From Cellulomonas sp. NS3 (GTDB lineage: Bacteria; Actinomycetota; Actinomycetes; Actinomycetales; Cellulomonadaceae): a stretch of DNA of 64,000 nucleotides. The position numbers and the translations under genes are program-made. Positions 1 to 16,073 of the stretch are shown one piece after another. The notes below the pieces were generated by a model that was given only the letters and a program-made list of their open reading frames with translations, was not told where the DNA came from and did not search any database. The stretch is taken from the NCBI RefSeq assembly GCF_024757985.1, contig NZ_CP103289.1, positions 3,224,001 to 3,288,000 on the forward strand. The letters are read 5' to 3'. The first letter of the stretch is position 1, and the number at the start of each line of letters is the position of its first letter.

Positions 1-986
1 AGCTCGCGCAGCGAGAGCGCGAGCCCCACGAGGTTGTCGGGCGCCCCGAGCTGGTCCGACGCGGTCAGCGAGCGGGTCGCCGCGTCGAGGAACCCGTAGA
101 CGCTCCGCGGGCTCGTCAGCACCTCGGCGGAGAGGACCTTGCGGGTCATCGCGCCGACGAACTTCTGCTGGCGCGGGATGCGCTGGGTGTCGGAGTTGTC
201 GGACCCGGTGACGTACCGCGCGCGCACGTAGTCGAGCGCCTGCTGCCCCGCGAGATCGTGCCAGCCGGCCGCGAGGTCGAGCTCGGTGTTCCCCTTGGTG
301 TCGCGGATCGCGCGCGGCACGCACACGCGCACCCCGCCGATCGCGTCGACCATCCCCTGGAAGCCCGCGAAGTCGACGAGGAGGAACTCGGACATCGTGA
401 GCCCCGTGTTCTCCGCGATCGTCGAGAGCGTGCACGCGGCCGCGAGCCCGACGTCGCCGGTGTCCGCGCCGGTCGCGAACGCGGAGTTGAACTTGTCGGT
501 GCGCGGCCGGGACATCGGCCCGTCGGGGTCGCGGTCGAGGTGGCACGCCGGGATCCGCACGTAGGAGTCGCGCGGGATCGACACGACCTCGACCCGGGTC
601 CGGTCCGCGGAGACCTGCACGATCATCGTCGTGTCCGAGCGCATCCCGTCGTCCGCCCCACCGATGTCCGCGTTGACGCCGCTGCGGTCGTCGGACCCCA
701 TCGCGACGAACCGCACCGGCTGCCCCGCCCAGGAGTCGCCCGGCGGGGGCGGCTCGGTCGGGCTCGCCGACGGGGCGGCGACCAGGTGGGAGATGTCCTC
801 GACGCGCTCGACGTTGCCGTTGAGCCGCACGGCGGCCAGCGCGGCCGCCGACCCCCCGAACGCCAGCACGGCGACGGTCACGAGCGCCACGACGCGCCCG
901 ACGGGCACACGCTGGCCGTGCGACGCCGCGTGGCGGGGAGGGGCGGGGGGTGCGCCCTGCGGCGCTGCTCGACGTGCTCGGCTCAC
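1..986 (-). CDS. LytR-CpsA-Psr (LCP) family cell-envelope protein, C-terminus cut by window edge
   Basis: About 328 residues are visible; the gene runs off the left edge. The order is a short Arg/Ala-rich cytoplasmic tail, one membrane segment (about residues 28-48, VVALVTVAVLAFGGSAAALA), a short linker, then an extracellular LCP domain. The domain shows FVAMGSDDRSG near residue 90, MRSDTTMIVQV with VVSIPRDSYVRIP about 20 residues later, and VRARYVTGSDNSDTQRIPRQ further on, which are the usual LCP phosphate/lipid-binding stretches. LCP proteins attach undecaprenyl-linked glycopolymers to peptidoglycan at the outer face of the membrane. The GTG start (984-986) has no Shine-Dalgarno, but TACGGT lies six bases upstream, so the message is probably leaderless. 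Which polymer is attached cannot be told from this window. Confidence 0.9.
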   Translation of the reverse strand, partial: MSRARRAAPQGAPPAPPRHAASHGQRVPVGRVVALVTVAVLAFGGSAAALAAVRLNGNVERVEDISHLVAAPSASPTEPPPPGDSWAGQPVRFVAMGSDDRSGVNADIGGADDGMRSDTTMIVQVSADRTRVEVVSIPRDSYVRIPACHLDRDPDGPMSRPRTDKFNSAFATGADTGDVGLAAACTLSTIAENTGLTMSEFLLVDFAGFQGMVDAIGGVRVCVPRAIRDTKGNTELDLAAGWHDLAGQQALDYVRARYVTGSDNSDTQRIPRQQKFVGAMTRKVLSAEVLTSPRSVYGFLDAATRSLTASDQLGAPDNLVGLALSLRE

Positions 987-992
987 CCCGAC

Positions 993-998
993 ACCGTA
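993..998 (-). promoter_or_regulatory. -10 element of a leaderless promoter for the LCP gene
   Basis: TACGGT on the minus strand, followed by six bases and the GTG start codon, places the transcription start at or next to the start codon. Confidence 0.5.
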
Positions 999-1107
999 GG
1001 GAGTCCGAGCACGTGCGCGGGGCCGCAGCGGGTGGGAGATCGGTGCAGATGACGTGCACGTGCCCCGCTCGGGCCGCGGGCGCGCCGCCCCTCGCCCCGG
1101 CCCGGCG

Positions 1108-2175
1108 TCACGGGACGCGCGCGGTCCACTCCGGCGTCCCGAACCGCGTCTCGACGAGGTGCGCGGCGCGCTCGAGCTCGGCGTCCGTGAGCGCGCCGTC
1201 GACGGTCCGGTAGCGCGACCGGAAGTGGGCCTCGAACGCCGCGATCACGTCGGCCCGCGGCATCCCGGTCTGGGACCGCACGGGGTCGACGCGCTTGTTC
1301 GCGCTCGTCGTCCCCTTGTCGGAGAGCTTCTCGCGCCCGATGCGCAGGACCTCGAGCATCTTGTCCGCGTCGATGTCGTACGCCATCGTCACGTGGTGCA
1401 GGACGGCTCCGCCCGCAAGGCGCTTCTGCGCGGCGCCGGCGATCTTGCCCGCGGGCGAGGCGATGTCGTTGAGCCCCGCGTACGACGCCTGCACCCCGAC
1501 GTCGGCGAGCGCGCCGAGGACCCAGTCGTCCAGGAACGCGTACGACTGCTCGTACGAGAGCCCGTCGACCAGCGAGGCGGGCACCACGAGCGAGAACGTG
1601 ATGCAGTTGCCCGCCTCCATGAACATCGCTCCGCCGCCCGAGACGCGGCGCACGACCGTGATGCCGTGCCGCTCGGCGGCCTCCGCGTCGACCTCGTTGC
1701 GCAGCGACTGGAACGAGCCGATGACGACGGCGGGCTCCACCCAGTCCCAGAACCGCAGCGTCGGCCCGCGCCGGCCCGCGGCGAGCTCCTCGGCGAGGAC
1801 CTGGTCGAGCGCGCAGTGCAGCGCGGGGTGCTGCGGGGGCATCCGCAGCAGCTCGAACGTGTGGTCGTGCCAGCTCGTGGCGTGGCCGAGGGCGCGGCGG
1901 ACCGCGATCGCCACGGACTCCGTCGTGAAGCCGACGAGCATCACGTCCGGACCGAGCGCGCCCTCGATCGCCGCGGCGAGCTCCGCGACCGAGGCCGTCG
2001 CCGGCCGGCCGCGCAGCGCACCGCCGAGCCGGTCGAGCGCGTCGTCGGGCTCGAGGAAGAAGTCCCCGCTGACCCGGACGTCCGCGAGGGTCCCGTCGAC
2101 CACCGTCACGTCGGCCGCGACGAGCTTGCCGCCGGGCACCTTGTACTCGCCCCGCAGGACCGTCTCGTCACTCAC
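1108..2175 (-). CDS. lplA: Lipoate--protein ligase A family protein, swapped domain order
   Basis: This 355-residue protein would ligate lipoate to the lipoyl domains of 2-oxoacid dehydrogenases or GcvH in the cytoplasm. The catalytic domain begins near residue 95 and carries RRVSGGGAMF (about 176-185) and NDIASPAGKIAGAAQKR (about 237-253) with the lysine expected to bind lipoyl-AMP. The first about 80 residues (GEYKVPGGKLVAADV, then VSGDFFLEPDDAL) resemble the small accessory domain that sits at the C-terminus of E. coli LplA, so the domains look to be in reverse order. The GTG start lies six bases after a TAGGGT hexamer (leaderless). It could be an octanoyl/lipoyl transferase acting in a relay rather than an ATP-dependent ligase; the sequence does not settle this. 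Confidence 0.87.
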   Translation of the reverse strand: MSDETVLRGEYKVPGGKLVAADVTVVDGTLADVRVSGDFFLEPDDALDRLGGALRGRPATASVAELAAAIEGALGPDVMLVGFTTESVAIAVRRALGHATSWHDHTFELLRMPPQHPALHCALDQVLAEELAAGRRGPTLRFWDWVEPAVVIGSFQSLRNEVDAEAAERHGITVVRRVSGGGAMFMEAGNCITFSLVVPASLVDGLSYEQSYAFLDDWVLGALADVGVQASYAGLNDIASPAGKIAGAAQKRLAGGAVLHHVTMAYDIDADKMLEVLRIGREKLSDKGTTSANKRVDPVRSQTGMPRADVIAAFEAHFRSRYRTVDGALTDAELERAAHLVETRFGTPEWTARVP

Positions 2176-2181
2176 CCCGTC

Positions 2182-2187
2182 ACCCTA
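2182..2187 (-). promoter_or_regulatory. -10 element of a leaderless promoter for the lipoate ligase
   Basis: TAGGGT on the minus strand is separated by exactly six bases (GACGGG) from the GTG start at 2175, and there is no ribosome binding site. Confidence 0.5.
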
Positions 2188-2216
2188 CGGCGCGTCCGGG
2201 CGGCGCCCGCCGCCGG

Positions 2217-3032
2217 TCACTGCAGCGCGGCGGCCGCCTCGGACGCGCGTCGCTGCACGAGCGTGTCGAGCGCCGCGCCCTCCCCGAGCCGGTCCACGAG
2301 CTCCTCGCGACCGGCCCCGCCCAGCACCTCGGCGTTCCACGTGACGATCGCGTTGCCCACGAGCAGGTGCCCGCGGTAGCCGGGGACCGTCGTTCCCTCG
2401 GCGGTGTGCTCGATCTCCTGCCAGAGCGACGGGAACCGGCCCTGCGCCTCCGTGGCCGGCTCCCCGGTCCAGGACGCCCCGTCGACCCCCTGGTTGACCT
2501 GCCGGTACTCCGGGCACGAGTCGACGGTCGCGACGAGCGTGCGGAAGGCGTCGGCCGCGGCACCCTCGTCGGCGACGACGACGACCTCCTGCCGCACACG
2601 CACGGACAGACCGTCCCAGCCCCGGACGTCGTAGACCTCCGGGGCCGCGCTCACCACGGTCCGCGCGACCGCGCAGCGCTCGGGCTCGACGCGTGACCCC
2701 TCGGGGATCCCCCACGCCCACGGGAGCACCGGCCACGCGGACAGCGGGTCGTCGCCCGGCAGGGCCTCCTCGAGCTCCTCGCGCTCGAGCAGCAGGGCGG
2801 TCGCCGACGTGGCGTCGAACCGGGGCGCCCGGACCGTCGGCAGGACCGTCGGCGCTGCCGTCGTCGACCCGGCGCTCACCGACGGCGACGGGAAGGGCAG
2901 CGGCCCGGCCGAGGCCCAGGGGCGCGCCGCGACACCCGACGCAGCCGCGAGCACGAGCAGCACGCCCACGACCCACCAGGGCCACCGGCGGGCGCGCCGG
3001 TGCGGCGGGGCCGCCGCGACGTCGACGGGCAC
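2217..3032 (-). CDS. Single-TM exported protein with PknH-like sensor domain
   Basis: 271 residues: an Arg-rich start, one membrane segment (about 19-36, WWVVGVLLVLAAASGVAA), a Pro/Ser/Thr-rich linker, then an extracellular domain of about 200 residues. The domain has spaced cysteines (PERCAVAR and VDSCPEYRQV) and a VVVVADEGAAADAFRTLVATVDSCP stretch typical of the PknH C-terminal sensor fold, here without a kinase domain. Such domains are thought to bind ligands outside the cell, but none is known for this protein. The GTG start is preceded by CAGGAGCG at suitable spacing. It is followed by the lipoate ligase 41 bases downstream, with which it is probably not co-transcribed because that gene has its own -10 hexamer. 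Confidence 0.75.
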   Translation of the reverse strand: MPVDVAAAPPHRRARRWPWWVVGVLLVLAAASGVAARPWASAGPLPFPSPSVSAGSTTAAPTVLPTVRAPRFDATSATALLLEREELEEALPGDDPLSAWPVLPWAWGIPEGSRVEPERCAVARTVVSAAPEVYDVRGWDGLSVRVRQEVVVVADEGAAADAFRTLVATVDSCPEYRQVNQGVDGASWTGEPATEAQGRFPSLWQEIEHTAEGTTVPGYRGHLLVGNAIVTWNAEVLGGAGREELVDRLGEGAALDTLVQRRASEAAAALQ

Positions 3033-3159
3033 GAGGCGCTCCTGCGGACGAGGGATGAGACTCCCTTGACCTTACGCTGACCGAGCGGTCGGCCGCAGGA
3101 CCGGACCACGCAGCGCTCCCCCACGCGCCGCGGACCGGCCCGGCGACGACCGGGTGACG

Positions 3160-4791
3160 TCAGCTCGGGTCGACGCCGTGGTGGTACAGGCCCCAGATCG
3201 CGGAGTCGGTGAGCGCCTCCCACGACGCCTCGAGCAGGTTCGGGCCCACGCCCACGGTGCTCCACGACGTCTGGCCGTCGGTCGACTCGATGAGCACGCG
3301 CGTGACCGCGTCGGTGCCGTGCATCGCGTCGAGGATGCGGACCTTGAAGTCGATGAGCTCGAACGACTCGAGCACCGGGTAGACGCGCACGAGCGCCTGC
3401 CGGAGCGCGTGGTCGAGCGCGTTGACGGGCCCGTTGCCCTCGCCGGTCGAGACGATGCGCTCGCCGCCCGCGTGCAGCTTGACGGTCGCCTCGGCCGTCG
3501 CCGGCACCCCGCGCCCGCCGGCCCGCTCGACGATCGCGCGCCAGCTCTCGACGCGGAAGTACCCGGGCCGCCCGCCGTGGAGCTCCTCGACGAGCAGGAG
3601 CTCGAACGACGCGTCGGCCGCGTCGTACGTGTACCCCTGCGCCTCGGCGTCCTTGACCCGCTTGGTCACGCGCGCGAGGAGCTCGCCCTGGCCGGCGAGG
3701 TCGAAGCCGAGCTCGCGCCCCTTGAGCTCGATCGCCGCGCGGCCGGCCATGTCGGAGATGAGCATCCGCATGTCGTTGCCCACCCGGCGCGGGTCGATGT
3801 GCTGGTACAGGTCGGGGTCGACCTTGATCGCGCTCGCGTGCAGGCCGCCCTTGTGCGCGAACGCGCTCGCGCCGACGTACGGCTGGCGGGCGAACGGCGC
3901 GATGTTCGTGATCTCGCTGATGGCGTGCGCGATCCGGGTCATCTCGGCCAGGCCACCCTCGCCCTCCCCGTTGCTCGCGAGCAGGGTGCGGCCCTGCTTG
4001 AGCTCGAGGTTCGCGACGACCGCGAGCAGGTCCGCGTTGCCCGTGCGCTCGCCGTAGCCGTTGACCGTGCCCTGGACGTGCTCGCAGCCTGCACCCACCG
4101 CCGCGATCGAGTTCGCGACCGCGCACCCCGAGTCGTTGTGCGCGTGGATGCCGAGGATCGCGTCGGGCCCCACGGCCGCGCGCACCTCGGCGACGATCTC
4201 GGCGACCCAGTCGGGCAGCATCCCGCCGTTGGTGTCGCAGAGCGTGACGACCTCGGCGCCGGCCTCGAACGCGCGGACCGCGGCGGACAGCGCGTAGTCC
4301 CGGTCGAAGCGGAACCCGTCGAAGAAGTGCTCGGCGTCCACCACGACCCGCCGCCCCTCGCGCACGAGCAGCGCGACGGTGTCGCCGATCATCGCGAGGT
4401 TCTCCTCGCCCGTCGTGCGCAGCGCGCGCTCGACGTGCCGCAGGTCGCTCTTCGCGACGAGCGTCACCACGGGGGCCTGCGAGTCGATGAGCGCGCGCAC
4501 CTGCGCGTCGTCCTCCGCCCGGACCCCGGGCTTGCGCGTCGACCCGAACGCCGCGAGCACGGCGTGCTTCAGGTCGAGCTCGGTGCGCGCACGGGCGAAG
4601 AACTCGGTGTCCTTCGGGATCGCGCCCGGCCAGCCACCCTCGATGAACCCGACCCCCAGCTCGTCGAGCAGCGGGGCGATCGCGAGCTTGTCCGCGACGG
4701 AGAGGTTCATGCCCTCCTGCTGCGCGCCGTCGCGCAGGGTCGTGTCGTAGACGTGGAACGGGCGCGCGCCCTCGGCGGTGGGGTGGGTCAC
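3160..4791 (-). CDS. cimA: Citramalate synthase
   Basis: 543 residues. It condenses pyruvate and acetyl-CoA to (R)-citramalate, the entry to the threonine-independent route to 2-oxobutanoate and isoleucine. The N-terminal HMGL-like TIM barrel opens with VYDTTLRDGAQQEGMNLSV (about residues 14-32) and GVGFIEGGWPGAIPKD, which separates CimA from 2-isopropylmalate synthase. HAHNDSGCAVANS carries the metal-binding histidines. The C-terminal third (from about 395) is a LeuA-type dimerisation/feedback domain. The GTG start has GGAGAGAG upstream. The gene lies downstream of ilvE with a leader-peptide attenuator between them, so expression is probably set by branched-chain aminoacyl-tRNA charging. Confidence 0.95.
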   Translation of the reverse strand: MTHPTAEGARPFHVYDTTLRDGAQQEGMNLSVADKLAIAPLLDELGVGFIEGGWPGAIPKDTEFFARARTELDLKHAVLAAFGSTRKPGVRAEDDAQVRALIDSQAPVVTLVAKSDLRHVERALRTTGEENLAMIGDTVALLVREGRRVVVDAEHFFDGFRFDRDYALSAAVRAFEAGAEVVTLCDTNGGMLPDWVAEIVAEVRAAVGPDAILGIHAHNDSGCAVANSIAAVGAGCEHVQGTVNGYGERTGNADLLAVVANLELKQGRTLLASNGEGEGGLAEMTRIAHAISEITNIAPFARQPYVGASAFAHKGGLHASAIKVDPDLYQHIDPRRVGNDMRMLISDMAGRAAIELKGRELGFDLAGQGELLARVTKRVKDAEAQGYTYDAADASFELLLVEELHGGRPGYFRVESWRAIVERAGGRGVPATAEATVKLHAGGERIVSTGEGNGPVNALDHALRQALVRVYPVLESFELIDFKVRILDAMHGTDAVTRVLIESTDGQTSWSTVGVGPNLLEASWEALTDSAIWGLYHHGVDPS

Positions 4792-4939
4792 GATCGGCTC
4801 TCTCCGTGCGGTCGGTCGGACGTGCGTCGATCTCGGGGTCCCGGCCGCGGCCGGGGGTCCCGCCGGCGGGGTGCTGCCGGCCTGTCGTGCCAGTGCGATC
4901 GACGGGGTGCCGGGCGGAGGTGGTGCCCGACAACAAAAA

Positions 4940-4963
4940 GACCCCCCGAGGATGCGGGAGGTC
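4940..4963 (-). terminator. Attenuator terminator before cimA
   Basis: On the minus strand, GACCTCCC (loop GCATCCTC) GGGGGGTC forms an 8-bp stem with one G-U pair, followed at once by TTTTTGTTG. This is a classic intrinsic terminator and sits inside the 5' leader of cimA, about 150 bases before its start. A second hairpin lies immediately upstream (4966-4989). Confidence 0.85.
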
Positions 4964-4965
4964 GG

Positions 4966-4989
4966 CGCGTCTGCGGGTGGGCAGACGCG
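4966..4989 (-). promoter_or_regulatory. Pause or anti-antiterminator hairpin of the cimA attenuator
   Basis: CGCGTCTGC and GCAGACGCG form a perfect 9-bp stem with a 6-base loop. It begins directly after the leader-peptide stop codon and ends two bases before the terminator stem. A ribosome stalled on the Leu/Ile/Val codons would cover or disturb this element. No clear antiterminator partner for the terminator stem was found by eye, so the switching mechanism is inferred from position. Confidence 0.6.
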
Positions 4990-5031
4990 CTACACGATGA
5001 TGAGGCTGAGCTGTGTCACGCGCCACATCAT
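4990..5031 (-). CDS. Leader peptide MMWRVTQLSLIIV of the cimA attenuator
   Basis: The 13-codon reading frame encodes MMWRVTQLSLIIV and ends in TAG. Five of its last six residues are Leu, Leu, Ile, Ile and Val, the three branched-chain amino acids. The stop codon abuts a 9-bp hairpin, then a terminator with a U-tract, then cimA. This is the arrangement of ribosome-mediated transcription attenuation. The start is uncertain: ATG at 5031 or 5028 lacks a good ribosome binding site, while GTG at 5019 lies seven bases after CATGAT and could be leaderless. The stalling codons are included in every case. Confidence 0.82.
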   Translation of the reverse strand: MMWRVTQLSLIIV

Positions 5032-5137
5032 GCCACAGGGCCCCGGCGGGCCCTCCTCCCTCTCGCCCGCTGGACACCGGCGCCGCCGCGGGCTCCGCGG
5101 CCGCCGTCGAGGGGCGGCCGCGGGCACCCGTGAGCGG

Positions 5138-6250
5138 TCAGACCAGGCGGTGCAGCCAGCCGTGCCGGTCCTCGGCGCGGCCGTACTGGATGTCCGTGAG
5201 CTCGGTGCGGATGCGCGTGGTGAGCGCGCCCGGCTGGCCGTCGGCCACGGTGTGCTCCCAGCCGCGCCCCGCGAGCCGGCCGATCGGCGTGATCACCGCG
5301 GCCGTGCCGCACGCGAAGACCTCGGTGATCGAGCCGTCGGCGAGCCCGGTGAGCACCTCGGCGAGCGGGATGCGGCGCTCCTCGACGTCGTGGCCCGCGT
5401 CGCGCGCGAGCTGCAGGATCGACGAGCGCGTGACGCCCTCGAGGATCGAGCCCGAGAGCTCGGGCGTCGCGACCGTGCCGTCGGCGCGGACGACGAACAC
5501 GTTCATCCCGCCGAGCTCCTCGAGCAGGGTGTTCGTCGCGGCGTCGAGGAAGCACACCTGGTCGTATCCGTTCGCGGCGGCCTGCCGCTGCGGCAGGAGG
5601 CTCGCGGCGTAGTTGCCGCCGCACTTCGCGTCACCGGTCCCCCCGGGGCCTGCCCGGTGGAACTCGTCGTCGACCCAGATCGACACCGGCTTGACCCCGC
5701 CCGCGAAGTAGGGGCCCACGGGCGAGGCGATCACGAGGAACTCGGCCTCGAGCGTCGGGCGGACGCCGAGGAACGCCTCGGACGCGTACATGAACGGACG
5801 CAGGTAGAGGCTCGCCTCGTCGCCCGTCGGGACCCACGCGCGGTCGGTCGCCACGAGCGCGGTGATCGCACCGAGGAAGTCCGCCTCGGAGAGCACCGGG
5901 AGCGCGAGTCGGTGCGCCGAGCGGGCGAGCCGCGCGGCGTTGGCCCACGGGCGGAACGTCCAGACCGACCCGTCGGCGTGCGGGTACGCCTTGAGGCCCT
6001 CGAAGATCTCCTGGCCGTAGTGCAGGACCGCGGTCGCCGGGTCGAGCTGGAGCGGGCCGTACGGCTCGACGCGGCGGTCGCGCCAGCCGGTGCCGTCCGA
6101 CCACGAGACGCGCGCCATGTGGTCGGTGAAGACGGTCCCGAACTTCGGCGCCGCGGTCAGCGCGTCGCGCTCCGCGTCGGGGGTCGGGGTGTCCGTCGGG
6201 CGGATCTCGAACGTCGGCAGCTCGGTCGACGGGGACGTGTCGGTGCTCAT
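5138..6250 (-). CDS. ilvE: Branched-chain amino acid aminotransferase
   Basis: 370 residues, class IV PLP-dependent aminotransferase. It catalyses the last step of Leu, Ile and Val synthesis and the first step of their breakdown, with 2-oxoglutarate/glutamate as partner. GDAKCGGNYAASLLPQ carries the PLP lysine; LHYGQEIFEGLKAYPHADG and ELGGMNVFVV match the family, as do the conserved TRSSILQLARD and EVFACGTAAVITPIG near the C-terminus. I chose ATG at 6250 because GAAAGG lies eight bases upstream; an in-frame GTG at 6265 would add five residues. It follows leuB by 111 bases and precedes the cimA leader by about 105. Confidence 0.95.
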   Translation of the reverse strand: MSTDTSPSTELPTFEIRPTDTPTPDAERDALTAAPKFGTVFTDHMARVSWSDGTGWRDRRVEPYGPLQLDPATAVLHYGQEIFEGLKAYPHADGSVWTFRPWANAARLARSAHRLALPVLSEADFLGAITALVATDRAWVPTGDEASLYLRPFMYASEAFLGVRPTLEAEFLVIASPVGPYFAGGVKPVSIWVDDEFHRAGPGGTGDAKCGGNYAASLLPQRQAAANGYDQVCFLDAATNTLLEELGGMNVFVVRADGTVATPELSGSILEGVTRSSILQLARDAGHDVEERRIPLAEVLTGLADGSITEVFACGTAAVITPIGRLAGRGWEHTVADGQPGALTTRIRTELTDIQYGRAEDRHGWLHRLV

Positions 6251-6361
6251 GAGGGGGCCTTTCACCTGGGACGGTTCTGACGGTACCGGGTGAGACGGCC
6301 GGGTGGTCGGGGGGACGTGCGCCGCGCGTCGGCCCGCTGCGGGGAGCGGGCCGTGCGCGGG

Positions 6362-7411
6362 TCAGCCGCTGATGCGCGCGGCGAGGTCCTTGCCCACCTC
6401 GGCCGTCGACCGTACTCGCCCGAGCGAGCCGCGCTCGGCCAGGTCGGCGGCGACGGCGCGCTCGACGGACGCCGCGGCGTCGGTCAGTCCGAGGTGGTCG
6501 AGGAGCATCGCGACGGACAGGACCGTCGCGGTCGGGTCTGCCTTGCCCTGGCCCGCGATGTCCGGTGCGGAGCCGTGCACCGGCTCGAACATGCTCGGCG
6601 CGGTGCGGTCGGGGTTGATGTTCGCGGACGCCGCGAGGCCGATGCCGCCCGTGATCGCCGCGGCGAGGTCCGTGAGGATGTCGCCGAACAGGTTGTCGGT
6701 CACGATGACGTCGAAGCGCGACGGGTTCGTGACGAGGAAGATCGTCGCGGCGTCGACGTGCAGGTAGTCGACCGTGACGTCGGGGAACTCGGCGTTGACC
6801 GCGTCGACCGTGCGGCGCCACAGGTGGCCCGCGTGGACCAGCACGTTGTGCTTGTGCACGAGGGTGAGCTTCTTGCGCGGGCGCGCCGCGGCGCGGGCGA
6901 ACGCGTCGCGCACGACCCGCTCGACGCCGAACGCGGTGTTGACGCTGACCTCGTTGGCGACCTCGGCCGGCGTGCCGACGCGGATCGCGCCGCCGTTGCC
7001 GACGTACGGGCCCTCGGTGCCCTCGCGGACGACGACGAAGTCGACCTCGCCGGGGTTCGCGAGCGGCGAGGTCACGCCCGGGTACAGCCGTCCGGGGCGC
7101 AGGTTGACGTAGTGGTCGAGCGCGAAGCGCAGCTTGAGCAGCAGCCCCCGCTCGAGGACGCCTGAGGGGACCTGCGGGTCGCCGATCGCGCCGAGCAGGA
7201 TCGCCTCGTGGCCGCGGATCGCCTCGAGGTCGGCGTCCGTGAGCGTCTCGCCGGTCGCGTGCCAGCGGCGGGCGCCGAGGTCGAAGTCGGTGGTGCGCAC
7301 GGTCACGTCGCTGCCCGAGAGCGCCGCGTCGAGGGCCAGCAGGCCCTGCTCGACGACCTCGGTCCCGATGCCGTCGCCTGCGATCACTGCCAGCTCGATG
7401 GTGCGCGTCAT
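6362..7411 (-). CDS. leuB: 3-isopropylmalate dehydrogenase
   Basis: 349 residues. It oxidises and decarboxylates 3-isopropylmalate with NAD+ in leucine synthesis. Family marks are [16 protein letters not shown] at the start, [20 protein letters not shown] with the substrate-binding arginines, the catalytic lysine and aspartates in [20 protein letters not shown], and [21 protein letters not shown] near the C-terminus. The length and [10 protein letters not shown] motif fit the actinobacterial short type. The ATG start lies six bases after TAGGGT without a ribosome binding site, so the gene has its own leaderless promoter rather than depending on ilvBNC upstream, which ends at a strong hairpin. 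Confidence 0.95.
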
Positions 7412-7417
7412 GCGGCC

Positions 7418-7423
7418 ACCCTA
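7418..7423 (-). promoter_or_regulatory. -10 element of a leaderless promoter for leuB
   Basis: TAGGGT, then six bases (GGCCGC), then the leuB ATG. It lies downstream of the terminator hairpin that ends ilvBNC. Confidence 0.5.
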
Positions 7424-7470
7424 GCGGCGCGTCCCACGTGCCGGGACGCACATCTCACGGTCTGACACAC

Positions 7471-7509
7471 GCCGAGGGCGGCGCCCCGGTGCGGGACGCC
7501 GCCCTCGGC
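7471..7509 (-). terminator. Terminator hairpin after ilvC
   Basis: GCCGAGGGCGGCG and CGCCGCCCTCGGC form a perfect 13-bp stem around a 13-base loop, 78 bases past the ilvC stop. It has no U-tract, as is common in high-GC actinobacteria. It separates ilvBNC from the leuB promoter. Confidence 0.75.
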
Positions 7510-7586
7510 GGACGTGCGGTGCGCCGGGCCGCGCGGGCGTGCAGCCTGCGGGCCGGGCGGGTGGAGCGGCCGGTCGGCGCGTCGGG

Positions 7587-9220
<1,634 letters not shown>

Positions 9221-9296
9221 GCTGCACCTTCTCCAGAGGTCGACGGGGACGGGACGGGGGCCGGCGTGCGCGGGCCGCTGCGGGCGGGGCCGGGCA

Positions 9297-11159
9297 TCAG
9301 TCATCCCGGTCCCACGCCGGGGAGATCCCGCGCGCGTACTGGATCTCGTCGTTGCTCACGCCGGCCGAGACCATGGGCCACACCATCGCGTCGCGCGAGA
9401 CCGTGAAGTCGACCACGACGGGCTGGTCGTCGATCTCCATGGCGCGCTTGATCGTCGCGTCGACGTCGGCCTTCGTCTCGCACCGCAGCCCCACGCAGCC
9501 GTAGGCCTCGGCGAGCTTGACGAAGTCCGGGACGCGCACGGTGCCGTGCCCGGTGTGCAGGTCGGTGTTCGAGTACCGGGACTCGTAGAACAGCGTCTGC
9601 CACTGCCGCACCATGCCGAGCGAGGAGTTGTTGATCACCGCGACCTTAATCGGGATCTCGTTGATCGTGCAGGTCGCGAGCTCCTGGTTGGTCATCTGGA
9701 AGCAGCCGTCGCCGTCGATGGCCCACACGGTCCGGTCGGGCTCGCCGACCTTCGCGCCCATCGCCGCGGGGACGGAGAAGCCCATGGTCCCGAGGCCGCC
9801 GGAGTTGAGCCACGAGTTCGGGCGCTCGTAGCGGATGAACTGCGAGGCCCACATCTGGTGCTGGCCGACGCCCGAGGCGAAGATCGACTCCGGCCCCGAG
9901 ATCTCGCCGATCCGGCGGATCACGTGCTGCGGGGCGAGGTGGCCGTCGTCGGGCTCGTCGAAGCCCAGCGGGAACGTCTCGCGCCAGGCGTCGACCTGCT
10001 TCCACCAGCCCTCGAGGTCGGGGCGGCCGTGCTGCGCGTGCTCCTTGACGAGCTCGGGCAGCAGGTCGGCGAGGACCTCCTTGAGGTCGCCCACGATCGG
10101 CACGTCCGCGGCGCGGTTCTTGCCGATCTCCGCGGGGTCGATGTCGGCGTGCACGATCGTCGCGCCGGGCGCGAAGCTGGACAGCTTGCCGGTCACGCGG
10201 TCGTCGAACCGTGCGCCGAGGCTCACGATCAGGTCGGCCTTCTGCAGCGCGGCGACGGCGGCGACCGTGCCGTGCATCCCGGGCATGCCCAGGTGCTGCG
10301 GGTGCGAGTCGGGCAGCGCGCCGCGGGCCATGAGCGTCGTCACCACGGGGGCGCCCGACGCGTCGACGAGCTTGCGCAGGGCCTCCGACGCGCGGGAGCG
10401 GATCACGCCGCCGCCCACGTACAGCACCGGCCGGCGGGCGGTCGCGAGCAGCCGCGCCGCCTCGCGGATCTGCTTGGCGTGCGGCTTCGTGACCGGGTGG
10501 TAGCCGGGGAGCTTGAGGTCCTGCGGCCACGAGAAGGTGGTGTTCGTCTGCATCGCCGACTTCGCGATGTCGACGAGCACGGGGCCGGGGCGGCCGGTCG
10601 ACGCGATGTGGAACGCCTCGGCGATGACCCGCGGGATCTCGTCGGGGTCGGTCACGAGGTAGTTGTGCTTCGTGACCGGGAGCGTGATGCCGACGATGTC
10701 GGCCTCCTGGAACGCGTCGGTCCCGATGAGGGACGCGCCGACCTGGCCCGTGATCGCGACGAGCGGGATCGAGTCCATGTGCGCGTCCGCGATCGGCGTC
10801 ACGAGGTTCGTCGCCCCGGGGCCCGACGTCGCCATGCACACGCCGACCTTCCCCGTCGCGTGCGCGTAGCCCTGCGCCGCGTGACCGCCGCCCTGCTCGT
10901 GGCGCACGAGGATGTGCCGCACGCGCTTCGAGTCCATGAGCGGGTCGTAGGTCGGCAGGATCGCGCCGCCGGGGATGCCGAAGACGACCTCGACGCCGGC
11001 CTCCTCGAGCGAGCGGACGATCGACTGGGCACCCGTGACGCGCTCGGGGCCGACGGCGACGTCGCGCGTGACCTCGGCGCTGCGCGGATCGGCGGTGACG
11101 CGCACGGAGGCCGGCGTGGCCGGCGTGCGCGGGGGTGCCGGGTGGGGACCCTGGACCAT
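9297..11159 (-). CDS. ilvB: Acetolactate synthase catalytic (large) subunit
   Basis: 620 residues, thiamine diphosphate enzyme. It makes acetolactate or acetohydroxybutyrate from pyruvate, the first common step of Val/Leu/Ile synthesis. After a Pro/Ala-rich leader of about 40 residues come [17 protein letters not shown] and [20 protein letters not shown] with the catalytic Glu, then the central FAD-binding domain ([18 protein letters not shown]). The TPP motif [15 protein letters not shown] with the NN pair about 25 residues from GDG closes the C-terminal domain. It heads ilvBNC and is preceded by a leader peptide rich in Ile/Leu/Val and a terminator. Confidence 0.96.
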
Positions 11160-11251
11160 CGGTTTCTCCCTGGCTTCGGTGCTGGTGGAGCTCGGGGTCG
11201 TGCTCTGCGGTGCTGTCCGTCCGGGCGCGGCGTGCCGCCGACATAGAAAAA

Positions 11252-11282
11252 CCCCTCGGCCCGGAACGGGCTGGACGAGGGG
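11252..11282 (-). terminator. Attenuator terminator before ilvB
   Basis: On the minus strand CCCCTCG and CGAGGGG form the outer stem, with an inner GCCCG/CGGGC pairing and a GAA loop, followed by TTTTTC. It lies between the leader peptide (ends 11317) and the ilvB start (11159). Upstream, GAGCGCG (inside the end of the leader frame) can pair with CGCGCTC just before the terminator, a possible competing structure. Confidence 0.82.
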
Positions 11283-11316
11283 TGAGCGCGCGACGAGACC
11301 TGGTGACGAGGTCGCC

Positions 11317-11361
11317 TCAGCCGGCGCGCTCAGGTACTACGAGAAGGAGGATCGTCTGCAC
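11317..11361 (-). CDS. Leader peptide [14 protein letters not shown] of the ilvBNC attenuator
   Basis: A 14-codon frame starting with GTG reads [14 protein letters not shown], with the unbroken run Ile-Leu-Leu-Leu-Val-Val. It is followed after about 35 bases by a terminator with a U-tract and then ilvB, the standard layout for ribosome-mediated attenuation by branched-chain aminoacyl-tRNA levels. TAGAGT ends seven bases before the GTG and GTGACA lies 17 bases further upstream, so the peptide is probably translated from a leaderless 5' end. Confidence 0.87.
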
Positions 11362-11368
11362 GTCCGGG

Positions 11369-11397
11369 ACTCTACGCCGCGCCCGCGGGGATGTCAC
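11369..11397 (-). promoter_or_regulatory. Promoter of the ilvBNC leader and operon
   Basis: GTGACA (11392-11397) and TAGAGT (11369-11374) on the minus strand are separated by 17 bases, close to the -35/-10 consensus. The leader peptide GTG follows seven bases after the -10. Confidence 0.65.
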
Positions 11398-11508
11398 CTC
11401 GCCCGACGGCGCGTCTCGCATGGTGGTTCACGTGTCCGCGATGCGGAAACTGGCGCGGGCGCTCATGCGTCGGCCGCACGTGCCGATCTGGACGGGACGA
11501 GGCTGCGT

Positions 11509-11580
11509 GCTCGCGCTCGCGCTCCGGCTCGGGCACGGGCTCCGGCTCGCGCTCGCGCTCCGGCTCAGGCACGGGCTCCG
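11509..11580. repeat. 36-bp tandem repeat, two copies plus a fragment
   Basis: Two adjacent 36-base units (11509-11544 and 11545-11580) differ at one position and are followed by GCTC of a third. The units are themselves built of GCTCGC/GCTCCG hexamers. They lie between the divergent ilvB leader and the lipoprotein gene, and no convincing gene covers them. Confidence 0.85.
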
Positions 11581-11637
11581 GCTCGGTTCGGGCCCGGACG
11601 GACGCCGCCGGTCCCTGCGGCGAGGAGGAGGACGACG

Positions 11638-12444
11638 ATGGCCGACACGCGTGCGCCCGCGCTCGTGGTCACCGCCCTGCTGGCCCTCGCCGCGTGCGCC
11701 GGGCCGGCTCCCGCGGCGGACCCGGCACCCGCCTCCCCGGCGTCGGTGCCCACGACCTCCGCACCCGCCGCACCCGCCGCACCGGGCGACGATCCGGACG
11801 CGTCCCTCGAGCACCTCGCCGACGGCCTGGTGTACGACCCCTCCGCACTCGTGCTGCCCGCGGACGCCGGCGCGCACTTCGCGGCCACGGACCTGAGCAC
11901 GTTCGCGGTCCAGGCGGTCGAGGCGTTCGACGTCGTCATGGAGACCTCCGAGCAGACGCAGCGGCCCGACGGCGACGGCCCGCTGCTGCTCGAGTACTTC
12001 GAGCCCGTCGCGGGACACCTCACGCCGTCGGCGTGGACGCTGCTCGTGACCGCCTTCGAGTCCGGCGACCAGCCGACCGTCTCGGCGCTCGTCCCGTCGA
12101 GCGCGCTCGTCCCGCCGGACGCGTCCGCCGCGGCCGGGGAGCCGGCGGAGCCCGGCGCTCCCGAGCCGGGCACCGCCCCGCCCGGTGATCCCGACGGCGG
12201 CGCCGCGACCGAGCAGGTCGGGAGCATCGAGCCCTACCGCCCGACCGGGCAGCCGACCGTCGCGCTCGTCGTGCCCGAGCCGGGTGCCGCGCGCCTCGCG
12301 GTCACGTTCTCCTACCAGCGCGTGTTCGGCGCACCCGACGGGGAGCGCGTCTACGACACCGACCACACGCTGTACCTCGTCCCGGTCGAGGGACGCTGGC
12401 TCGTCGACGGCTGGCGGACGAGCTACCCGACGCTCGCCCCCTGA
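11638..12444 (+). CDS. Putative lipoprotein with NTF2-like C-terminal region
   Basis: 268 residues. The start MADTRAPALVVTALLALAAC is a lipoprotein signal with lipobox LAAC (Cys about 20), followed by a Pro/Ala/Ser-rich linker to about residue 55. The body contains STFAVQAVEAFDVVMETSEQ, YFEPVAGHLTPSAWTLLVTA, then an acidic Pro/Gly/Ala stretch. It ends with YLVPVEGRWLVDGWRTSYPT, typical of small conserved actinobacterial lipoproteins with an NTF2-like (SnoaL-like) fold. I do not recognise a function. The ATG is chosen because GGAGGAGG lies upstream and the lipobox is at the right distance. The stop codon falls in the first unit of a 15-bp tandem repeat. Confidence 0.8.
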   Translation: MADTRAPALVVTALLALAACAGPAPAADPAPASPASVPTTSAPAAPAAPGDDPDASLEHLADGLVYDPSALVLPADAGAHFAATDLSTFAVQAVEAFDVVMETSEQTQRPDGDGPLLLEYFEPVAGHLTPSAWTLLVTAFESGDQPTVSALVPSSALVPPDASAAAGEPAEPGAPEPGTAPPGDPDGGAATEQVGSIEPYRPTGQPTVALVVPEPGAARLAVTFSYQRVFGAPDGERVYDTDHTLYLVPVEGRWLVDGWRTSYPTLAP

Positions 12445-12501
12445 GCGCGTCGGTCCTCAGCGCGTCGGTCCTCAGCGCGTCGGCCCTCAGCGCGTCACCC
12501 C
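12442..12501. repeat. 15-bp tandem repeat, four copies
   Basis: Four units of the pattern TCAGCGCGTCGGTCC run head to tail from the stop codon of the lipoprotein gene; units 1-3 differ by one base each and the fourth diverges in its second half. The repeat ends about 50 bases before the stop of the convergent gene at 12554. Confidence 0.85.
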
Positions 12502-12553
12502 GGTGAGTGCGCCGACCCCCGTGCGCGCACCTCGCGCCGCGGCACCCCCGGGC

Positions 12554-12826
12554 TCAGCAGCAGCGCGAGCCCGGGTGCCGTGCGGTGTGGGCGTGCCGCT
12601 CGCGCCAGTACTCCCCCACGCCCAACGGCGTCGCCCCCGGCGAGGTGCGCGCGAGGTGCGCGACGTAGCGCGCGTGGTCGTCGTCCCCGAGCAGCGCGCC
12701 CACGTACCAGCGCACCGCGCGCCACGCGCGTGCCGCACGGGCGCGCAGCCGCGGAGGCCCGGCCTCCCCCGCGCCCCCGCGGGGGCGGGAGGCGAGACCG
12801 GGGCCCAGCCCGCCCGCCGCCCTCAC
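12554..12826 (-). CDS. ybdD: YbdD/YjiX family small protein (DUF466), partner of CstA
   Basis: 90 residues. It contains AWRAVRWYVGALLGDDDHARYV and the family hallmark GEYWRERHAHTARHPGSRCC at the C-terminus. YbdD-type proteins are encoded beside cstA and are reported to be needed for CstA-type pyruvate uptake in E. coli. The GTG start overlaps the cstA stop in the pattern GTGA, so the two are translationally coupled. The N-terminal 25 residues are low-complexity Gly/Pro/Arg and the true start could be slightly further in. Confidence 0.85.
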   Translation of the reverse strand: MRAAGGLGPGLASRPRGGAGEAGPPRLRARAARAWRAVRWYVGALLGDDDHARYVAHLARTSPGATPLGVGEYWRERHAHTARHPGSRCC

Positions 12827-15102
12827 CCGTGCACCCCCGCCCGGGCGGGACGCGGACCCTCGGCGTCCCAGAGCGCCTGGATCTCGCGCTCCGCGTCCGT
12901 CGGCACCATGCCCGTGGGCGCGAAGATCTGCGACGGCGCGTCCGGCTCCTCGCTCGTCGGGAGCCCGCCGGCGCGGACCGCACGCACGCACACCACCGCG
13001 GCCGCGAGCACCGTGACGAGCACGAGGACGGCGAAGAGGATCGACAGCGTGCCCTGCACGGCGGTGTTCCGGATGACGGCGTCCATCGCCTCGGGCGTCG
13101 CGGCCGACCCGAACGACTCCTCGCCGGCCTCGCGGGCCGCCCGGAACGCGTCGTGCTGCGCCCAGTACCCGAGCCTCGGGTCGGTCGAGAAGATCTTCTG
13201 CCAGGACGCCGTCATCGTGACGACGAGGTCCCAGACCAGCGGGAGGCCCGGGATCCAGGCCCACCGGAACAGCCCCTTCTTGACCACGACCGTGAAGACG
13301 ACCGAGAGCGCGATCGCGGCGAGCAGCTGGTTCGCGATGCCGAACAGCGGGAACAGCGTGTTGATCCCGCCGAGCGGGTCCGTGACCCCCATCAGCAGGA
13401 TCGCGCCCCAGCCGGCGACCACGAGCGCCGAGCACAGCCACGCCCCGACGCGCCACGACGGGTCCCGGAACCGCTTCGCGCGACCGCCGAGGTTGCCGAG
13501 CGAGTCCGAGAGCATGAAGCGCGCGACGCGGGTCCCGGCGTCGACGGTCGTGAGGATGAACAGCGCCTCGAACATGATCGCGAAGTGGTACCAGAACGAC
13601 GCGAGCGACGAGCCGCCGATCGCGCTCGCGAGCACCTGCGCCATCCCGAACGCGAGCGTCGGGGCCCCGCCGGTGCGGGAGATGATCGACTCCTCGCCCA
13701 CGTTCTCCGCGGCCCCGGCGATCTCCTCGGGAGTGATGTCCGGGCCGCCGAGGCCCAGCCCGTTGACGTACGCGGCCGCCGCCTCGGGCGTGCCGCCGGT
13801 CAGCGCCGTCGGGGCGTTCATCACGAAGTAGAGGTGCTGGTCGATGACGACCGCCGTGACGAGCGCCATGATCGCGACGAACGACTCCGTCATCATGCCG
13901 CCGTACCCGATGAGCCGGGCCTGGCTCTCCTTCTCGAGCAGCTTGGGCGTCGTGCCGGACGCGATGAGCGAGTGGAACCCGGACAGCGCGCCGCACGCGA
14001 TGGTGATGAACAGGAACGGGAACAACGACCCGGCGAACGCGGGGCCGTTGCCCTCGAGCGCGAACGACGACACCGCGGGCGCCTGGACCTCGGGGCGCAC
14101 GAGCAGGATGCCGACCGCGAGCAGGACGATCGTGCCGACCTTCATGAACGTCGACAGGTAGTCGCGCGGGGCGAGGAGCAGCCACACCGGGAGCACCGAG
14201 GCGGCGAACCCGTAGGCGACGAGCAGCCAGGCGATCGTCACCTTGGAGAGCGTGAACCAGTCCTGGCCCCAGTCGGTCTCGGCGACCCAGCCGCCCGAGA
14301 CGATCGCGAGCAGCAGCAGCACGAGCCCGATGAGCGAGACCTCGCTGACCCGGCCGGGCCGCAGGAACCGGAGGTAGACGCCCATGAACAGCGCGATCGG
14401 GATCGTCATGGCGATCGAGAAGATGCCCCAGGGGCTCTCCGCGAGCGCGTTCACGACCACGAGGCCCAGCACCGCGATGATGATGATCATGATGACGAAG
14501 ACCCCGACGAGCGCGGCGATCCCCCCGACGCGGCCGAGCTCGTCGCGCGCCATCTGACCGAGGCTGCGCCCGCGCCGACGCACCGAGATGGACAGCACGA
14601 GGAAGTCCTGCACCGCGCCGCCGAGCACGCAGCCGATCACGATCCACAGCGTCCCGGGCAGGTAGCCCATCTGCGCCGCGAGGACCGGGCCGACGAGCGG
14701 GCCGGCGCCGGCGATGGCCGCGAAGTGGTGGCCGAAGAGCACGCGCCGGTCGGTCGGCATGAAGTCCTTGGCGTTCTCGTACCGCTCGGCGGGCGTCGCC
14801 CGGTCGTCGCGCGGCCGCACGATCTTCCGCTCGACGAAGCGCGCGTAGAACCGGTAAGCGATCGCGTACGTGCAGACGGCGGCGACGACGAACCACACCG
14901 CGTTGACGGTCTCGCCGCGCACGACCGCGATGACCGACCAGGCGACCGCGCCGACCAGCGCGATCACCGCGAACACGATCTTCGAGCGGACCGGCATGGG
15001 TCGCCGGTCGATCACCCCGACGGGGAGCGCCCCCTCCCCGGTGCGCAGCACCTCGACTCCGGACGCGTCGGACATGGGCCCTCCCGGGACGGCTCGCGCC
15101 AC
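12823..15102 (-). CDS. cstA: Carbon starvation protein A (pyruvate/peptide transporter family)
   Basis: 759 residues with many hydrophobic membrane segments. The core motif GHHFAAIAGAGPLVGPVLAAQ (about residues 123-143) and YLPGTLWIVIGCVLGGAVQDFLVL are diagnostic for CstA, as are FHSLIASGTTPKLLEKESQA and MLSDSLGNLG. E. coli CstA and its paralogue BtsT take up pyruvate, with peptide uptake also proposed. The C-terminal about 40 residues (PTSEEPDAPSQIFAPTG onward) form a polar tail. It is coupled to the DUF466 gene downstream. The upstream region (15103-15294) also serves the divergent small membrane protein gene. Confidence 0.94.
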   Translation of the reverse strand: MARAVPGGPMSDASGVEVLRTGEGALPVGVIDRRPMPVRSKIVFAVIALVGAVAWSVIAVVRGETVNAVWFVVAAVCTYAIAYRFYARFVERKIVRPRDDRATPAERYENAKDFMPTDRRVLFGHHFAAIAGAGPLVGPVLAAQMGYLPGTLWIVIGCVLGGAVQDFLVLSISVRRRGRSLGQMARDELGRVGGIAALVGVFVIMIIIIAVLGLVVVNALAESPWGIFSIAMTIPIALFMGVYLRFLRPGRVSEVSLIGLVLLLLAIVSGGWVAETDWGQDWFTLSKVTIAWLLVAYGFAASVLPVWLLLAPRDYLSTFMKVGTIVLLAVGILLVRPEVQAPAVSSFALEGNGPAFAGSLFPFLFITIACGALSGFHSLIASGTTPKLLEKESQARLIGYGGMMTESFVAIMALVTAVVIDQHLYFVMNAPTALTGGTPEAAAAYVNGLGLGGPDITPEEIAGAAENVGEESIISRTGGAPTLAFGMAQVLASAIGGSSLASFWYHFAIMFEALFILTTVDAGTRVARFMLSDSLGNLGGRAKRFRDPSWRVGAWLCSALVVAGWGAILLMGVTDPLGGINTLFPLFGIANQLLAAIALSVVFTVVVKKGLFRWAWIPGLPLVWDLVVTMTASWQKIFSTDPRLGYWAQHDAFRAAREAGEESFGSAATPEAMDAVIRNTAVQGTLSILFAVLVLVTVLAAAVVCVRAVRAGGLPTSEEPDAPSQIFAPTGMVPTDAEREIQALWDAEGPRPARAGVHG

Positions 15103-15228
15103 GCGCCCCGAGCCCCCTGGCCCGCGTCGGCAGCGACGTGACGCGCGTCACGCTATCCCCGGGGGCGGGCGCCTGCCTACGCACCCGCTCCGGCGCGTCG
15201 GGGCCCATGCCGGGCGGCGCCGAAAATA

Positions 15229-15255
15229 CTTGTCACGATGGAAAGTACGTGCAAG
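15229..15255. promoter_or_regulatory. Imperfect inverted repeat before the membrane protein/regulator pair
   Basis: CTTGTCAC and GTGCAAG face each other across 12 bases, 40 bases before the start at 15295. The arms match at all positions apart from one extra T in the left arm. It could be the site of the winged-helix regulator encoded as the second gene of the pair; this rests on position only. Confidence 0.35.
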
Positions 15256-15294
15256 GGTGGAGGAACGTTCCCGGCCGCACACGAGGAGACCGCC

Positions 15295-15729
15295 ATGACC
15301 ACGATGCACCCGCCCACGCCCGACGAGGCGCGCGCGCTCCTCCGCTCCTCCACGGCCTCCGCCGCCGCGGTGCGGGACATCGGCGGCAACCGCCACGCGC
15401 AGTGGCTGACCGGCCACGCGGTCGCGGTGTTCTCCTACTTCGCCGCGCTCGCGACCGCCGACCAGGACGTCGAGGTGCTCGTCTCCTCGCTCGCCTACGC
15501 CGCCGCCCTCGCCGTGCTGAGCGTGACGCTCCTGCCGGGCGCGACCGTGAGCAAGTCCGGCATGGGCCGGCGCTGGCTGCGCGCGCTCCTGTGGTGGGGC
15601 GTGATCTACGCCGCGTGCATGGTCGTCGGCCTGTACCTCTTCCGCGCCGAGCCCGCGTTCTGGCTCTCCGCCGCCGTGGTGACCGCGCTTCCGCTCGCGC
15701 TCGGCGCCCTGCGGGAGAACCGGGCATGA
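15295..15729 (+). CDS. Small polytopic membrane protein
   Basis: 144 residues with about four hydrophobic segments: HAVAVFSYFAALATA, VSSLAYAAALAVLSVTLLPG, WLRALLWWGVIYAACMVVGLY and FWLSAAVVTALPLALGAL. I do not recognise a family with a known role. ATG at 15295 is preceded by ACGAGGAGAC. Its stop TGA overlaps the ATG of the next gene (ATGA), so the membrane protein and the regulator are co-translated, a layout often seen for a regulator and its target. Confidence 0.8.
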   Translation: MTTMHPPTPDEARALLRSSTASAAAVRDIGGNRHAQWLTGHAVAVFSYFAALATADQDVEVLVSSLAYAAALAVLSVTLLPGATVSKSGMGRRWLRALLWWGVIYAACMVVGLYLFRAEPAFWLSAAVVTALPLALGALRENRA

Positions 15730-16073
15730 CGGCCGCACCGGCACCCGGCGGCGCCCTGCCCGCGCCCGACGTCGTCGGTGCCAGCGCCCGCGTGCGGCTC
15801 GACGAGGTCATCCACGCCCCCGTCCGGCTGTCCATCGTCGCCGCGCTCGCCGCGACGGACGAGGCGGAGTTCGGCGCGGTCCGCGACGCCGTCGAGGTCT
15901 CCGACTCCGCGCTCAGCAAGCACGCGTCCGCGCTCGAGCAGGCCGGCTACGTCGCCGTCCGCAAGGGGTACGTCGGCAAGCGCCCCCGGACCTGGCTCAA
16001 GCTGACCCCGCCCGGGCGGGACGCCCTCGCCGCGCACCTCGCAGCGCTGCGGCGGATCGCCGGCGACGCCTGA
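15726..16073 (+). CDS. Winged-helix transcriptional regulator (MarR/ArsR-like)
   Basis: 115 residues. A winged helix-turn-helix spans most of the protein: RLDEVIHAPVRLSIVAALAA, then FGAVRDAVEVSDSALSKHAS as the recognition helix region, then LEQAGYVAVRKGYVGKRPRT as the wing. This is the usual pattern of the short winged HTH DNA-binding proteins in actinobacteria that regulate a co-encoded membrane protein. There is no ligand-binding domain and no cysteine cluster for a metal. It overlaps the preceding gene by four bases. Confidence 0.85.
   Translation: MTAAPAPGGALPAPDVVGASARVRLDEVIHAPVRLSIVAALAATDEAEFGAVRDAVEVSDSALSKHASALEQAGYVAVRKGYVGKRPRTWLKLTPPGRDALAAHLAALRRIAGDA

Follow-up and report, generated by a model that had tools for sequence, protein, structure and literature searches.

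A candidate isoleucine-sensing attenuator upstream of the citramalate synthase gene cimA in Cellulomonas and other actinobacteria

In Cellulomonas sp. NS3 the gene for citramalate synthase, cimA, is preceded by a very short reading frame and two hairpins. What does this arrangement do, and if it is a switch, which amino acid works it and by what means? The question was addressed in a stretch of 64,000 nucleotides of this genome (the window), and in relatives from the same family, order, class and phylum.

The genes concerned, ilvB (TIGR00118), ilvC (named by eye), leuB, ilvE and cimA, lie on the minus strand. A leader reading frame, a hairpin (P1) and a terminator (T) follow one another between ilvE and cimA. 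The features, in the order of transcription, are:

11251..11361, minus strand: related leader of ilvB with the same architecture (ilvB by TIGR00118, hairpin ends by eye)
5138-6265, minus strand: ilvE, upstream neighbour of the leader
5027..5037, minus strand: predicted extended -10 element, TGTGGCATGAT; a TGnCAnnAT-like box stands here in relatives
4990..5019, minus strand: leader reading frame from the sequence, GTG ACA CAG CTC AGC CTC ATC ATC GTG TAG, encoding VTQLSLIIV
4990..4965, minus strand: hairpin P1, 10 bp, GCGCGTCTGC/GCAGACGCGC, beginning at the G of the UAG stop; covariation
4963..4940, minus strand: terminator hairpin T, 9-bp stem with one G.U pair; from a terminator scan, kept in relatives
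4931..4939, minus strand: U-tract TTTTTGTTG, from the sequence and the terminator scan
3160..4791, minus strand: cimA, citramalate synthase (TIGR00977, 609 bits, cut-off 450)

The leader and its start

An earlier note on this DNA had described a leader whose stop codon touches a 9-bp hairpin, followed by an 8-bp terminator with five T residues and then by cimA. Its identification of the gene is borne out by the TIGR00977 score, and the encoded protein is 96% identical to that of C. cellasea NBRC 3753, the nearest named record. The stop does touch the hairpin and the terminator is present, with stems of 10 and 9 bp in place of 9 and 8. A single base, C4964, separates P1 from T (a gap of 1 nt, by eye). 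T with its U-tract is the sole terminator-like site in 4700-5300, where 50 shuffles gave a mean of 0.0. The local folding energy of 4900-5080, computed for the plus strand, has a z of -1.87, which is weak evidence. None of 4227 Rfam models matched either strand of window positions 1-16000 at E <=1. Downstream of the U-tract, a hairpin with a C/A loop, of the type CGGGCACCACCCCCGCCCG, can be seen by eye at 4905-4930 (minus strand) and in many relatives, sometimes twice.

The note also proposed a frame of 13 codons. Such a frame exists, running from ATG (5031) to GTG TAG (4992-4990) and reading MMWRVTQLSLIIV up to the stop, but translation probably starts at GTG 5019 and yields the nine-codon peptide VTQLSLIIV. 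The minus strand upstream of this GTG reads TGTGGCATGATGTGGCGC, and in the leaders of relatives a -10-like box lies 6-7 nt before an RTG codon, which is the ground for choosing GTG 5019. The proposed start, ATGATG (5031-5026), overlaps the conserved box, and its MMWR codons fall in the -10 region and the spacer. The cimA transcript is therefore probably leaderless, with a predicted 5' end at about 5019 rather than within 5020-5060 as the note had it.

The spacing of the box was examined with two scripts. In each of the 76 distinct leaders recovered at family level, a loose pattern that accepted only spacings of 5-8 nt placed it 6 or 7 nt ahead of the RTG codon. A tighter box, allowed to lie 4-11 nt away, was again found only at 6 or 7 nt in 67 leaders, named or from the window, that had a start; of the 86 leaders processed, 5 yielded none with this box, and 27 loci did not match the terminator pattern on the strand tried. 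The consensus TGnCAnnAT was read by eye, the scripted pattern being looser. A scan with the sigma-70 consensus found no promoter at the leader; the -10 consensus given for S. lividans is TAnnnT (PMC8079986). Read-through from ilvE into the leader is possible, the conservation of a promoter-like box notwithstanding. In some Sanguibacter-like loci (L017, L070 and L099) the -10 box and the start codon lie within an inverted repeat whose sequence is TGTGTCAT..ATGACACA or nearly so.

The window's ilvB leader, at about 11.36 kb, is presumably the first such leader that the earlier note had in mind. The cimA leader resembles it, in agreement with the note's view of the cimA leader as a branched-chain one. 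By eye, its P1 spans about 11331-11284 and its T about 11283-11251. It has the same GCGCG..CGCGC hairpin, which abuts its own terminator as P1 does in the cimA leader.

Conservation in the family and beyond

A script for the whole arrangement recovered the element in 104 of 110 sequences (109 loci and the window, many of them near-identical). Four of the six misses (L060, L062, L086, L087) are contigs that end near cimA, L096 is without the element, and L103 carries a variant that a covariance model did match. The leader ends in UAG in all 76 distinct leaders.

Alignment A1 holds 52 of the 72 distinct segments. Double changes that keep the pairing occur at 5 of the 9 pairs of P1, and T is nearly invariant. 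Mispairing in P1 is seen in 7 of the 52 sequences at one pair and in 5 of 52 at the next. Alignment A3 consists of 29 distinct wider sequences aligned onto the model structure, a procedure that favours covariation; here double changes were found at 5 of 9 pairs in P1 and 4 of 6 in T. None of 500 shuffles reached the observed covariation score in either alignment. The four bottom pairs of P1 are invariant in both. In the T stem, 48 of 52 sequences retain a U.G wobble (A1 columns 52/68) where U-A would do, and a GTTG downstream of the U-tract is likewise kept in relatives.

A covariance model (R1) was built from the 52 sequences and matched 79 of 99 relatives at E <=0.1, a count that includes the window's own genome and many relatives that had supplied sequences to the model. 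The element lies 26-274 nt (median 116) upstream of cimA in 75 of the 82 relatives with cimA, own genome included, and was not found near cimA in the other 7. The search for similar leaders in relatives that the earlier note had proposed thus leaves its claim standing. The element also precedes cimA at loci whose upstream sequence, read by eye, is something other than the end of ilvE, so that it belongs to cimA, as the note had supposed. Ten further matches lie away from cimA, nine of them just before ilvB by their coordinates.

A second model (R2) drew on 61 sequences, every one of them from the window's order. Applied to 197 genomes of the class, the own genome and some others of that order included, it matched 140 at E <=0.01, and CimA is found in 156. 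Of the 149 genomes with listed cimA coordinates, at least 102, spread over 29 of 34 families, have the element upstream of cimA on the same strand. The figure is a minimum, counted on matches listed down to E 1.8e-5; two genomes of family f37 (L282 and L284), for instance, carry the element though absent among the matches listed. Among the matches listed, the distance to cimA is 22-205 nt (median 62). There is no listed match near cimA in 47 of the 149 genomes, including the whole of families f36 (0 of 14) and f44 (0 of 15), and a search of 8 upstream regions from these two families gave no match to the element.

For the phylum, the set of 60 genomes took in the own genome and a few others from the class or order, and 23 of the 60 match. 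Five phylum loci were read: three precede ilvB, and at another (L304) a Leu-Leu-Leu leader stands before a LeuA/CimA-type gene.

Because the element recurs at the same place in families outside those used to build the models, and because P1 covaries, these comparisons argue that it is more than chance. They indicate a real element, old within the class, that belongs to cimA.

Control codons and fixed distances

The earlier note spoke of a leader rich in leucine, isoleucine and valine. The predicted signal is indeed a branched-chain one, though mainly isoleucine. An Ile codon is present in all 125 scored cimA leaders (9 of 134 were unscored), and isoleucine makes up 20% of leader residues as against 4% in cimA genes. 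AUU accounts for 50 of 143 leader Ile codons (35%) and for 4 of 1472 (0.3%) in 69 cimA genes, the leaders in these Ile and AUU counts being related by descent and not independent events. In the family-level leaders, AUU is over-used as if a slow codon had been selected; in the window both Ile codons are AUC. Leaders in the window's family have 8-16 codons, and 17 of 76 distinct ones have only one Ile among the last four codons.

The codons change with the gene that follows. Of 48 listed class-level matches away from a listed cimA, 20 were read. Ten precede ilvB and have mixed Ile, Leu and Val codons. Two precede leuA (L279 and L281; NF002086, 621 and 617 bits, cut-off 532), with the complete leaders MTNLLLT and MKHLLLIESARH. 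Two others precede leuS (L273 and L280; TIGR00396, 599 and 570 bits, cut-off 548), with MRRTLLLT and MRTTFLLGQPR. Four precede an ilvA-like gene (L265, L271, L274, L276), which resembles threonine ammonia-lyase with scores under the curated cut-offs; three of these leaders end in MAIT, MGIT and MGIT and one contains MIIS. Finally, at L262 and L263 the leaders end in III and IIM before a small gene, whose whole reading frames have a weak ACT-domain match below cut-off; a 34-residue piece of it has no Pfam match. Judged by these sequences, the control codons correspond to the amino acid with which the following gene is concerned. In family f36 the module was seen before the ilvA-like gene (4 loci read), and none was found before cimA.

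Two distances are held within narrow bounds. In all 125 scored cimA leaders, 3-11 nt (mode 5) separate the end of the last Ile codon from P1. The gap between P1 and T is -1 to +1 nt in 130 of 130 (4 of 134 unscored), in scripts that considered only gaps from -4 to +6. At family level it is -1, 0 or +1 in 75 of 75, with an overlap of 1 nt in 5; at order and class level it is 0 or +1 in 55 of 55 (26 and 29). Two of the 31 genomes in the class-level set belong to the window's order, and three duplicates were excluded at order level. Thus P1 and T have no base in common in 125 of the 130. The stop codon, on the other hand, ranges in position from -4 to +23, counted from the first base of P1. These measurements point to the Ile codon-P1 and P1-T distances, and not the position of the stop, as the constrained ones, as a switch would need. 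In ilvB leaders P1 also adjoins T, with gaps of -4 to +6 (51 scored of 60), the far values being partly due to misassigned hairpins.

Flush hairpins at ordinary terminators were counted as a background that is too small to serve as a control. With a T5 rule, only 2 sites in 80 loci lay outside labelled elements, and one of these is the element of L103. A looser rule gave 67 sites in 645 kb, and each of the 47 flush sites listed is, by eye, a cimA element.

Mechanism, alternatives and known systems

The codons, hairpins and distances together make it probable that the element is a ribosome-mediated, isoleucine-sensing transcription attenuator of cimA. The leaderless transcript would begin at GTG, and a ribosome translating the leader would sense charged isoleucine tRNA. 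With ample isoleucine, the ribosome would reach the stop and cover the 5' arm of P1, P1 would stay open, T would fold unhindered and transcription would terminate. With isoleucine scarce, the ribosome would stall at the Ile codons just upstream of P1, which would remain folded. Standing flush with T, the folded P1 would hinder the base of T, which closes inside the exit channel of the polymerase, and transcription would read through into cimA.

In a classical attenuator, stalling of the ribosome lets an antiterminator pair with bases of the terminator. The search for one used folding predictions, in which the 5' arm of T could pair upstream before its 3' arm was made, with the footprint of the ribosome masked. 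This test is informative because it separates the states of the E. coli trp leader, for which the pairing was 0.34 and 0.67 with the ribosome on the first and second Trp codon, and 0.06 both at the stop and free. It scored 70 of 76 distinct cimA leaders, the window's leader being done separately, and no base-paired antiterminator was detected. Over the first 8 nt of T, pairing in the stalled states averaged 0.08 and 0.10, and none of the 70 leaders exceeded 0.5. For the first 3 nt alone, this value was exceeded by 1 of the 70 in each stalled state, by 6 with no ribosome and by 5 with the ribosome at the stop. A first version of the test, run on all 76, gave means of 0.08 and 0.13 and a maximum of 0.44 when stalled. 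The window's leader gave 0.07 and 0.18 stalled and 0.12 at the stop.

Equilibrium folding with a ribosome mask forms T in every state and proved uninformative, the E. coli trp control behaving alike. Two other pairings were set aside. Pairing of GAG, a Glu codon, with CUC of T was rejected because the Glu codon is not conserved, and pairing of the start region with sequence past the U-tract is not conserved either (by eye).

A steric block is proposed because P1 shares no base with T in nearly all scored leaders. That P1 prevents the closure of T by mere abutment is a tentative reading, for which the chances fall somewhat short of even. In a leader free of ribosomes, P1 is expected to form about 10.3 pairs. 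A ribosome leaves 9.0 of these when its A site holds the first Ile codon, 6.4 when it holds the last, and 0.1-0.3 at the stop. The value for the last Ile codon counts against the attenuator (in the window, 6.0 of 10.0 pairs remain), and since a ribosome there masks part of P1, read-through would depend on stalling at the first Ile codon. Also adverse are codon changes in the S. coelicolor ilvB leader that reportedly had no effect (Craster 1999, as cited in PMC1262725). The coexistence of P1 and T at equilibrium likewise weighs against the attenuator, as do the genomes with no match listed near cimA, the leaders with a single Ile among their last four codons, the mispaired positions of P1 and the negative promoter scan.

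Alternatively, attenuation may be classical after all, with an antiterminator missed by the folding, such as a transient extension of P1 that borrows bases of T. This is a less likely account, though one with precedents. Adjacent overlapping hairpins that share a GCC trinucleotide are the published model for ilvBNC (PMC11857589), and a terminator/anti-terminator switch has been proposed for mycobacterial ilvB1 (PMC13236596). Overlaps of 1-4 nt occur in 16 of 51 scored ilvB leaders (60 examined, with some wrong hairpin choices), and the 1-nt overlaps in family-level cimA leaders point the same way. Set against these is the T 5' arm, which stays unpaired upstream in stalled cimA leaders while the trp control pairs. 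Another possibility, rather improbable, is that P1 is mainly a pause hairpin for loading or catch-up of the ribosome, the coupling of ribosome and polymerase deciding the outcome. A possible pause site in the 5' arm of T lies about 10 nt beyond the end of P1 (our own reading), a distance that agrees with the pause rule, and its four bottom pairs never vary. A pausing role was proposed for the first hairpin of ilvBNC (PMC11857589). Pausing alone would leave unexplained why the distance from Ile codon to P1 is fixed while the stop is mobile.

It is more doubtful still that a protein on the RNA, or a repressor at the promoter, regulates cimA and that the leader frame is incidental. The reported lack of effect of ilvB codon mutations in S. 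coelicolor (PMC1262725) would fit such control, as would the TGTGnCA..TGACACA-like inverted repeat seen by eye across the promoter in some relatives; the repeat is not general (by eye), AUU is enriched, and the match between control codons and downstream gene would have no place in it. Finally, a plain terminator of ilvE beside a chance reading frame is scarcely credible. The element does begin about 120 nt past the ilvE stop, yet it accompanies cimA even at loci with other sequence upstream, and its Ile codons, stop and hairpins are conserved jointly.

Steric attenuation may also reach further than cimA. It is quite possible, though less likely than not, that the phylum has a class of such attenuators, in which a ribosome-controlled hairpin stands flush with a terminator and no pairs compete; cimA would have its purest, isoleucine-specific form, and the module would be fitted to ilvB, leuA, leuS and ilvA-like genes mainly through the control codons. 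The cimA element offers a plain rule of architecture for a group of actinobacterial leaders that in 2005 were considered unclear in mechanism, and steric attenuation becomes directly testable by spacer insertions. The gene for the enzyme that opens the threonine-independent route to isoleucine is thereby added to those apparently controlled by leader peptides in much of the class, and a likely control site can be named for isoleucine and citramalate production in actinobacteria.

Leaders of ilvB, leuA and leuS have been published, and no cimA or citramalate leader was found in the literature searched, which was mostly openly licensed. Seliverstov et al. (2005) describe actinobacterial leaders for trp, cys, ilvB, leuS and leuA, and call the mode of the ilvB leader unclear (PMC1262725). 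The reannotation of S. lividans has eight leaders, including those of leuS, leuA and ilvB, and its main text contains neither the word cimA nor citramalate (PMC8079986).

On the present predictions, the cimA element operates in the manner of the branched-chain leaders already known. It is a variant of them because a classical base-paired antiterminator was tested for and not found. The actinobacterial ilvB leaders (Corynebacterium ilvBNC or the ilvB-II motif, whose Corynebacterium version is described in PMC10272879, S. lividans ilvL and mycobacterial ilvB1) share with it a P1 that adjoins the terminator and a short branched-chain reading frame, leaderless or nearly so, as is predicted for cimA. 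In C. glutamicum ilvBNC, adjacent terminator and antiterminator hairpins overlap by a trinucleotide, as supported by mutations (PMC11857589), and mycobacterial ilvB1 loses its response when the LVVI codons are changed (PMC13236596). The cimA element differs in its target gene, in its mainly Ile codons and in usually having no bases common to P1 and T; in the window's family its frame has 8-16 codons, and the stop stands at the first base of P1. It also leaves hardly any space for an anti-antiterminator hairpin such as has been proposed in ilvBNC.

The S. lividans leuS leader (LeuL2) and the predicted Streptomyces leuS attenuators share the short frame, leaderless as is predicted for cimA, the hairpin and the U-tract. 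They differ in their Leu codons, in serving a tRNA synthetase gene and in the antiterminator drawn for them in the 2005 paper. The LEU element upstream of actinobacterial leuA also has a leader frame with amino-acid codons, but is described as a pseudoknot pairing with the ribosome-binding site (PMC1262725), where the cimA element has a strong terminator instead.

The E. coli trp attenuator has in common with the cimA element its control codons, a stop that lets the finishing ribosome mask the next segment, and a terminator upstream of the gene. The cimA element differs from it in that no base-paired antiterminator is predicted and no protector hairpin is seen. Nascent hairpins that carry RNA polymerase past a terminator are found in the put RNA of phage HK022; put binds the polymerase, acts at a distance and is not controlled by a ribosome. 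Both put and the proteins that suppress terminators by acting at the polymerase's exit channel offer a parallel to the proposed steric block.
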